Source: Methylomonas sp. ZR1 (GTDB taxonomy: Bacteria; Pseudomonadota; Gammaproteobacteria; Methylococcales; Methylomonadaceae). Taken from it: DNA of 64,000 nt. Of this stretch, positions 42,201-43,161 are shown piece after piece (position 1 is the first letter of the stretch; the number at the start of each line of letters is the position of its first letter). The stretch lies in contig NZ_RCST01000001.1 in NCBI RefSeq assembly GCF_013141865.1, forward strand, positions 3,162,001 to 3,226,000, read 5' to 3'. The position numbers and the translations under genes are program-made. The notes beneath the pieces were generated by a model that saw only the letters and a list, made by a program, of their open reading frames with translations, was not told the origin of the DNA and did not search any database.

Positions 42201-43161
42201 GGGCAATAGACTGGTTCAAAGCCAGCATCGTACCGTCGGCGGCGACCAGCGCCATCGGCACCGGCGCCACATCGAACAATTTACGGAAGTTAGCTTCGCT
42301 TTCCCGCAGCGCCGCCTTGATACGCTTACGCTCAGTGATGTCGCGGACGATCTTCGACGCGCCGATGACCTTGCCGTCGCCATCTTTGATCGCCGAAATC
42401 GTCGAGGCGACCTCGATCCGGCTGCCGTCTTTACGCACCCGCTGGGTTTCGTAATTGCTGATCCGCTCGCCGTTTAAAATCCGCTGGAGCAATTCGGCTT
42501 CCGTGATCACCAGTTCGGCGGGAAACAGCAGCGTAATCGGCTGACCAATAATTTCAGCGGCGCTGTAACCGAAGATACGTTCGGCCGCGGGGTTCCAACT
42601 GGTAACGATTCCGTCCAAATTTTTGCCGATAATCGCATCGTCGGAAGAATTGACCAGCGCCGCCAACTGGGTACGTTCCGCCACCAAACCCTGCTCAAGC
42701 AATACGTTCGCCGCTTTCAGGGCCTGCTCGACCCGCTCACGTTCGGCCACTTCCTGCTGCAACTGGGCGTTGGCCTCGCGTAACTGCGCCGGGCTGGGCA
42801 ATTGCAGCGCTTTGGGAATCAGCGGTATCAGCACCGCCACCGTTATCACCGAAACTATCGCCGTCACCACTTTGGCAAACGCATCCAGTCCGTAAAGTGG
42901 TTCCCAAATCACCACCACATCCATCAGATGCGTCGTACCGCAGGCCAGAATGAACACCACAAACAGCCACAACACCCGGACATACGGAAAATCCTGCCGA
43001 TGCCGCGCGAAATAACCCAAGGCAACCGGCAGCAAAAAGTAAGACAGAAATATCAGGCCATCGCTGATCACAAAGGTCCACAACAAACCCGGCGACCAGC
43101 TCAGGCAATAGCCATGCGGCATAAAATTATTGTCGGTCAGGAACTTTAGAATGTCATTCAT
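39265..43161 (-). CDS. Hybrid histidine kinase with ethylene-receptor-like membrane domain
   Basis: 1298 residues from ATG 43161 (GTG 43191 adds ten). The N-terminus matches the ethylene-binding domain of plant ETR1 and cyanobacterial Etr1: three helices with VISDGLIFLSYFLLP (Asp34, Tyr41) and FILACGTTHLMD (Cys74 and His78, the Cu(I) ligands), then AKVVTAIVSVITVAVLIPLIP. Three PAS modules follow at about 165-290, 295-415 and 415-540. HisKA has His576 in MSHEIRTPMNAIIG, and the ATPase has DTGIGM and GGTGLGLAI. Receivers have Asp866 (VLMDWMMPGVDG) and Asp1005 (ILLDVQMPEMDG); the HPt has His1158 (AAHSLKSSAATLG). It is a complete phosphorelay with no adjacent response regulator. Ligand-site conservation suggests copper-dependent ethylene or copper sensing, unproven. 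Confidence 0.92.
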   Translation of the reverse strand: MNDILKFLTDNNFMPHGYCLSWSPGLLWTFVISDGLIFLSYFLLPVALGYFARHRQDFPYVRVLWLFVVFILACGTTHLMDVVVIWEPLYGLDAFAKVVTAIVSVITVAVLIPLIPKALQLPSPAQLREANAQLQQEVAERERVEQALKAANVLLEQGLVAERTQLAALVNSSDDAIIGKNLDGIVTSWNPAAERIFGYSAAEIIGQPITLLFPAELVITEAELLQRILNGERISNYETQRVRKDGSRIEVASTISAIKDGDGKVIGASKIVRDITERKRIKAALRESEANFRKLFDVAPVPMALVAADGTMLALNQSIARTFGYTLSDIPTVEDWWQHAYPDPVYRQTVFDTWQNLQQRAAEQQAPIESHEYQVTCKNGDVRTAIISGVTIGDNLLATLMDITERKRAEETLRKLSLVVEQSPESIVITDLDARIEYVNEAVIQTTGYTRSELLGQKASLFKSGKTKPEYFAVLWDNLTHGRSWQGEFINKRKDGREFVESAIVAPIRQQDGRISHYMAIKDDISEKKQMLQELESYREHLEELVVERTEQLADAMQAAEVANVSKSAFLANMSHEIRTPMNAIIGLTHLLQNTTLDAKQREQLAKISVAAQHLLGIINDILDFSKIEAGKLVLDIGDFDLDQVFKSLNDLICDRAAEKGLEVINRIDPALPAVLRGDALRLGQILLNFASNAVKFTDAGHIVFRAKLLAKNPVGIVARFEISDTGIGMNAEQCSRLFQAFEQADSTTSRRFGGTGLGLAISKRLIEMMGGTVGVQSNLGQGSTFWLELPFEYAVGSALQLPKPDIRKGLKVLVVDDVAEAREAIAHMLTRFEARVSVADSGLAAVQQVADARQADAPFDLVLMDWMMPGVDGIQTARRMGEILGEALPKIVLVTAYSYDGSAEDLHSVGIVGHLAKPVTLSALHDTIAGVLSGWRQKAPADARHPDLSRLKGRRVLLAEDNLINQEVALELLQDAGLLVDLAENGRIACDMAAKQLYDLILLDVQMPEMDGMAASLAIRRMPGREKTPILAMTANAFDEDRRACLSAGMNDHIPKPVNPEVLYDVMLRWMPPLPPSPPARVHKTPDEQNEGNAALLERLANIPGLDLQAGLHNLQHKLPFYLRQLRHFAQRHAAEADNIRHLLAVGDWESAQRAAHSLKSSAATLGITHIRETAEGIEITLKQRAAAAAESLQFPLKQLTEQLAWFIAQILDVLPAEPALQDISPPTYSEEALRAVVEGLRILLEEGNIQSQVYVQNHREQLRQAFGGEGVASLLRHVEVFAFDQALDVLQRDPHL

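Follow-up and report, generated by a model that had tools for sequence, protein, structure and literature searches.

Methylomonas sp. ZR1 carries a gene for a hybrid histidine kinase whose N-terminus is an ethylene-receptor-type ETR1_N domain, in which the Cu(I) ligand pair of ETR1 is intact and a binding-site isoleucine is replaced by leucine. On balance, we lean towards reading this protein as a Cu(I)-dependent sensor of an alkene, probably ethylene, that drives a phosphorelay. The gene lies on the reverse strand of the window (the whole stretch of 64,000 nucleotides that was analysed), in a frame that begins at GTG 43191 or ATG 43161 and ends with the stop at 39265. ATG 43161 is the start residue of seven relatives of 1295-1298 aa (P0121-P0126, P0128), and residue numbers below count from it unless stated otherwise. 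The gene, its parts and the gene that follows it are:

39265..43161, (-): hybrid histidine kinase with ETR1_N, 1298 aa if read from ATG 43161 and 1308 aa if read from GTG 43191
42799..43086, (-): membrane domain of three predicted helices, ETR1_N (ethylene-binding type), matched by PF25487 over residues 36-131 of the frame read from GTG
41521..42678, (-): PAS region, three sensory-box stretches with approximate limits (Pfam and NCBIfam)
41269..41463, (-): HisKA with the H-box SHEIRTP (Pfam and motif)
40783..41130, (-): HATPase_c with N, G1 and G2 boxes (Pfam and motifs)
40387..40728, (-): first receiver, limits approximate (two Response_reg stretches in Pfam, and motifs)
39964..40293, (-): second receiver (Pfam and motifs)
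39547..39783, (-): Hpt with AHSLKSSA (Pfam and motif)
37708..39219, (-): downstream gene without a Pfam family, 45 bases past the kinase stop at its longest reading

The order of domains, with ETR1_N ahead of the PAS domains, HisKA, HATPase, two receivers and Hpt, bears out the first-pass annotation, which had described a hybrid kinase with an ethylene-receptor-type N-terminus. Motifs for the His, the ATP-binding site, the receiver Asp and the Hpt His are all in place; the kinase holds those for autophosphorylation and for a His-Asp-Asp-His relay. The same HisKA-HATPase-receiver-Hpt phosphorelay is found in the BarA/TorS-type hybrid kinases, the best NCBIfam matches, although their sensor is unrelated to the ETR1_N domain of the window. 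In the best 25 of 159 NCBIfam matches, every equivalog model scored under its cut-off (BarA, 455.8 against 890 bits), and the MASE3-PAS-kinase model covered only the PAS and kinase part (424-804) at 205 bits against a cut-off of 560.

PF25487 matched the kinase with an E-value of 3.2e-34 and 117.5 bits, the curated cut-off being 27 (Pfam), which places the protein in the ETR1_N family. In the whole-genome search the E-value of this match was 9.7e-36, and the same HMM gave 0 matches in 14 control genomes; the match is far above chance. The N-terminus had been proposed to be the ETR1 ethylene-binding domain, with generic 7TM or MASE domains as the outcome that would speak against it. The profile search upheld the proposal, since none of the 10 Pfam matches of the kinase (E<=0.001) was a MASE or 7TM family. 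An AlphaFold2 model of the domain, computed from 48 aligned domains, predicts three helices at residues 24-54, 61-86 and 90-119 with a mean pLDDT of 87.4, and in this prediction both Cys74 and His78 lie on the second helix, in line with their proposed role as Cu ligand pair. A fold search of the model against the PDB gave no match at E<=0.001 and 113 at E<=10, which agrees with the statement in the available text of a review that the ETR1_N domain is without a high-resolution structure (PMC13012798). A sequence search of the PDB with the domain gave six chance-level matches (best E 0.72), as expected because the structure of the domain is unsolved.

By alignment with related domains, Asp34, Tyr41, Leu44, Pro45, Ile71, Cys74, His78 and Lys97 correspond to ETR1 D25, Y32, I35, P36, I62, C65, H69 and K91. 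The positions that matter most below are:

43105..43119, (-): PHGYC motif, residues 15-19, before helix 1 (His in 391/396 and Cys in 394/396 sampled domains)
43060..43062, (-): Asp34, aligned with ETR1 D25
43030..43032, (-): Leu44, aligned with ETR1 I35, not the essential Ile
42940..42942, (-): Cys74, aligned with ETR1 C65, Cu(I) ligand by homology (Cys in 395/396 sampled domains)
42928..42930, (-): His78, aligned with ETR1 H69, Cu(I) ligand by homology (His in 396/396 sampled domains)

Asp34, Tyr41, Cys74 and His78 had been named before and stand at the positions then given, followed by AKVVTAIVS; the change at Leu44 had been passed over. The D25-K91 pair is present as Asp34 and Lys97, and six of the seven essential residues (D25, Y32, I35, P36, I62, C65, H69) are identical in the window domain, the exception being Leu44. 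Plant ETR1 is alike in its three-helix Cu(I) domain with these six residues and K91; it presumably differs in having a GAF domain, a single receiver, neither PAS nor Hpt, Ile at I35 and no PHGxC motif. According to the accessible text of PMC6586836, I35 is one of the seven residues essential to ethylene binding in ETR1. Leucine at this position is a true failure of a defining feature. Judged by its sequence, the window protein is therefore classed within ETR1_N, with a variant ethylene-binding domain, and not as an ethylene receptor.

Conservation was read from 396 distinct domains, obtained from 183 loci (window included) and 240 proteins after removal of duplicates. This set is biased to the window, its genus, the best-scoring fetched matches, the best 80 of 203 loci and two protein-search seeds (best 120 of 230 and best 120 of 276 matches), one of which is an ETR1_N protein of the Asn25 type, and percentages drawn from it describe the set and not nature. 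C65 is kept in 395 of the 396 domains, H69 in 396, Y32 in 394, I62 in 392, P36 in 387, K91 in 359, D25 in 357 and I35 in 354. The variants are Leu or Met at I35, Ala, Ser or Thr at P36, and Asn, Glu or His at D25. Among the Methylococcales domains examined, C65 and H69 stand in 99/99 distinct domains (109 loci, some of them the same gene twice). In the sampled bacterial domains, conservation of the PHGxC motif ahead of helix 1 comes close to that of the Cu ligands; the motif may form a disulfide or a second metal site.

Cu ligands that are near-invariant while I35, P36 and D25 drift would suit a copper sensor, whose Cys/His site would read Cu(I) availability, the factor that governs the methane monooxygenase switch, ethylene being irrelevant. 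Methanotrophs need much copper, which also favours this explanation. We nevertheless regard it as unlikely. The purified ETR1 domain is reported to bind Cu(I) at ~1.3e-15 M (PMC6586836), a value more in keeping with a fixed cofactor than with a reversible sensor, and D25 and K91, which tune ethylene affinity and output in plant receptors according to the available texts (PMC13012798, PMC11819568), are kept in the window domain. Moreover, no copper gene was recognised among the neighbouring genes compared.

In a fast tree of the domain (~130 residues), for which the columns D25, I35, P36 and K91 had been removed, the window belongs to a clade of 39 members (support label 98) whose record names include Methylomonas, Methylobacter, Methylomagnum, betaproteobacteria and Magnetococcales. 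The position of I35 is Met in 21 members, Leu in 18 and Ile in none, whereas outside the clade Ile is found in 354/357 domains; residues 29, 30, 38, 52, 64, 84 and 94 are also typical of the clade. The tree was built without any experimentally tested receptor, and none is known to belong to this clade. As the position is never Ile here, ethylene binding of the window protein cannot be assumed. The earlier suggestion of ethylene sensing is borne out in part: it has the homology and the intact Cu(I) ligand pair behind it, but I35 is replaced, by Leu in the window, across the whole clade. One may also think of a reshaped pocket in the Met/Leu clade that takes a different small molecule at Cu(I), such as CO, acetylene or another alkene, as the absence of Ile in 39/39 members and the other clade-typical residues would suggest. 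Leu and Met are, however, conservative changes, and the clade comes from one fast tree of a short domain, so that this reading too seems improbable. That the domain is a relict or structural membrane anchor, with the PAS domains as the true sensors, is highly improbable in spite of several strong-scoring PAS matches, given that the domain is 90-100% identical across five Methylomonas loci and that conservation of its ligand residues extends over the sampled family.

In a separate clade, Asn25 is accompanied by Asp or Glu at 91 in 24/24 domains and His25 by Leu91 in 3/3. GGDEF-EAL proteins are numerous in the Asn25 clade, and the names of some are Methylotuvimicrobium and Methylovulum. The Asn-Asp or Asn-Glu exchange is seen at L160, L162, L166, L167, L168 and in many of P0001-P0022, the His-Leu exchange at L085, L161 and in P0021, and many domains with a replaced pair belong to GGDEF-EAL (cyclic-di-GMP) proteins of methanotrophs. 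In plants, replacement of the Asp by Asn is reported to cut affinity ~100-fold, and a bridge between the Asp and the lysine has been proposed (PMC13012798, available text). Covariation of D25 and K91 was considered as independent evidence (Fisher 2e-26) and discarded: the 27 Asn/His rows lie essentially in one clade of 31 rows and the tree holds one independent pair on supported branches and three on all branches, so the P-value is not usable. On this tree, the covariation amounts to at most a few evolutionary events.

ETR1_N is a known family that occurs in cyanobacteria, proteobacteria and others, and is not unique to the window. Two bacterial members, AzoEtr1 and SynEtr1, reportedly bind ethylene, the latter signalling by phosphorelay (PMC11819568, PMC6682694). 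In the available text of PMC11819568, AzoEtr1 of Azospirillum brasilense is likewise an ETR1_N-PAS-histidine kinase, and its D35, C75, H79 and K98 have the same spacing as D34, C74, H78 and K97 of the window. Unlike the window kinase, it has 525 aa, lacks receivers and Hpt, and is overlapped at its end by a response regulator gene; ethylene binding has been reported for AzoEtr1 (PMC11819568). SynEtr1 of Synechocystis and GeiEtr1/2 of Geitlerinema also join ETR1_N to bacterial kinase signalling (PMC6682694). By the same source, GeiEtr1/2 keep all seven residues and SynEtr1 has a cyanobacteriochrome domain, both unlike the window protein, and ethylene binding was demonstrated for SynEtr1 and for Geitlerinema cells (PMC6682694).

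ETR1_N sensors look unusually common among the relatives of Methylomonas. Matches over the cut-off were found in 27/37 genomes of the genus, in 152/301 of Methylococcales, in 10/274 of the class sample (three of the ten being Methylococcales) and in 28/398 of the phylum sample, own genome included. The Fisher odds ratios for Methylococcales are 27 against the class sample and 13.5 against the phylum sample, for samples controlled by MHYT only and unmatched for phylogeny, size and habitat. MHYT, a membrane sensor domain, served as control for genomes rich in signalling proteins and was not enriched (16/71 order against 14/66 class genomes), while in the same genomes ETR1_N (E<=0.001) was found in 27/71 of the order and 6/66 of the class by hand count; the enrichment of ETR1_N is thus not common to this control domain.

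Within the order, all 156 genomes with an ETR1_N match (E<=0.001) belong to two of the eight families seen (f1, f4). AMO-family genes were found in 237/301 Methylococcales genomes, and five of the six families free of ETR1_N (f2, f3, f6, f7, f8) have AMO-family genes yet 0 ETR1_N. In the phylum sample, AMO-family genes over the cut-off occurred in 3/398 genomes, namely the own genome, G664 from within the class and G748 from outside. The genus of G748, which we take to be alphaproteobacterial methanotrophs, has ETR1_N in 14/39 genomes, G748 itself not being among them. The family of G664, taken as ammonia oxidisers, has it in 5/100. A simple tie of ETR1_N to AMO-type enzymes was therefore dropped, the AMO-type enzyme alone being no predictor of ETR1_N. 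Methanotrophy is not sufficient for ETR1_N, nor is it established as its cause.

The host was taken to be a methanotroph, which is supported by its assignment to Methylomonas and by three AMO/pmoA-family matches in its genome; the third of these, at C1:2904249-2904950 outside the window, has one in-frame TAA. The genome encodes a second ETR1_N protein, ETR1_N-PAS-PAS-GGDEF-EAL, with P36 changed to Ala, so that 0/2 of its ETR1_N proteins keep all seven essential residues. At a locus of Methylomonas sp. LW13, the domain is 100% and the kinase 99% identical to those of the window.

The gene at 37708-39219 adjoins the kinase on the same strand in 5/5 Methylomonas loci compared (at L026 it is cut by the contig end); by eye, its product has a lipoprotein-like start and a hydrolase-like look. 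No response regulator gene adjoins the kinase within the window, and no hairpin beyond chance follows the kinase (z +1.1). Upstream of the kinase and next to it (~43480-46640 and 46917-52386) lies a CRISPR array of >40 repeats of ~36 nt, together with a Cas_GSU0053 gene, cas2 and a cas4-cas1 fusion; we assume this CRISPR-Cas to be of type I-G/U. It was rejected as part of the sensor system, as cas genes stand beside the kinase in only 2/5 Methylomonas loci (L023, L024) and were not found at the other three, among them the short contig L026. This comparison draws on eight of nine query genes, the one at 36977-37583 giving no information. Elsewhere in the window, a second hybrid kinase (DUF4118, PAS, receivers, Hpt) is followed directly by a response regulator with an HD-GYP-like HD domain (11906-16650), and two genes are proA-like by eye (7479-8735, 62342-63595).

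Ethylene had been supposed to matter to a methanotroph, and the available text of PMC11507031 agrees on grounds of toxicity: ethylene threatens all methanotrophs through epoxyethane, and it inhibits methane oxidation in soils and in culture. In Methylohalobius crimeensis, the same text reports, ethylene induces the etnE cluster for epoxide detoxification, which carries a MEDS-domain regulator as another candidate sensor (PMC11507031). The words 'receptor' and 'Methylomonas' have 0 occurrences in the main text of PMC11507031. Judged by titles and the starts of abstracts, none of the open-licence papers listed describes an ethylene sensor or receptor of a methanotroph. Likewise, among those papers we did not find in print an enrichment of ETR1_N, itself a family known in bacteria, in methanotrophs poisoned by ethylene.

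The alkene-sensor account is favoured by the 117.5-bit match, the six of seven residues with K91, the enrichment in Methylococcales while MHYT is not enriched, and the occurrence in the genus of G748. The constancy of C65/H69 in Methylococcales, ethylene binding by AzoEtr1 and SynEtr1, and the toxicity of ethylene also speak for it. Counting against it are Leu at I35, the second ETR1_N protein with its Ala, the restriction to two of eight families, the low count in the family of G664, the absence of ETR1_N from G748, the MEDS regulator of M. crimeensis, the lack of an adjoining response regulator, and samples unmatched beyond MHYT.

If the account holds, the protein would be an inner-membrane hybrid histidine kinase with an ETR1-type three-helix sensor holding one Cu(I) per subunit, at which ethylene or a close alkene would bind. 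Binding would shift the helices and alter kinase activity via the PAS region, and phosphate would be handed on via the receivers and Hpt to a response regulator encoded elsewhere. Copper loading, ethylene binding, output direction and target regulator are what we infer here. The sensor may signal the presence of a gas from which methane monooxygenase makes toxic epoxyethane, or of ethylene from plants or sediment as a habitat cue.

More tentatively, and with rather less confidence, we speculate that methanotrophs of two Methylococcales families and one genus outside the class use lineage-enriched Cu-based alkene sensors as an alarm for ethylene, which their own methane monooxygenase makes poisonous. 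These would feed phosphorelays and cyclic-di-GMP enzymes, their pockets having diverged, with Met/Leu at I35 and Asn-Asp/Glu at D25-K91, to give receptors that differ in affinity or ligand. With a receptor-type protein known in Methylomonas, ethylene sensing by methanotrophs can be tested directly, the near-identical LW13 gene being a target. The family further offers natural variants of this structurally unsolved binding site (I35L/M, P36A, and D25N with K91D/E).
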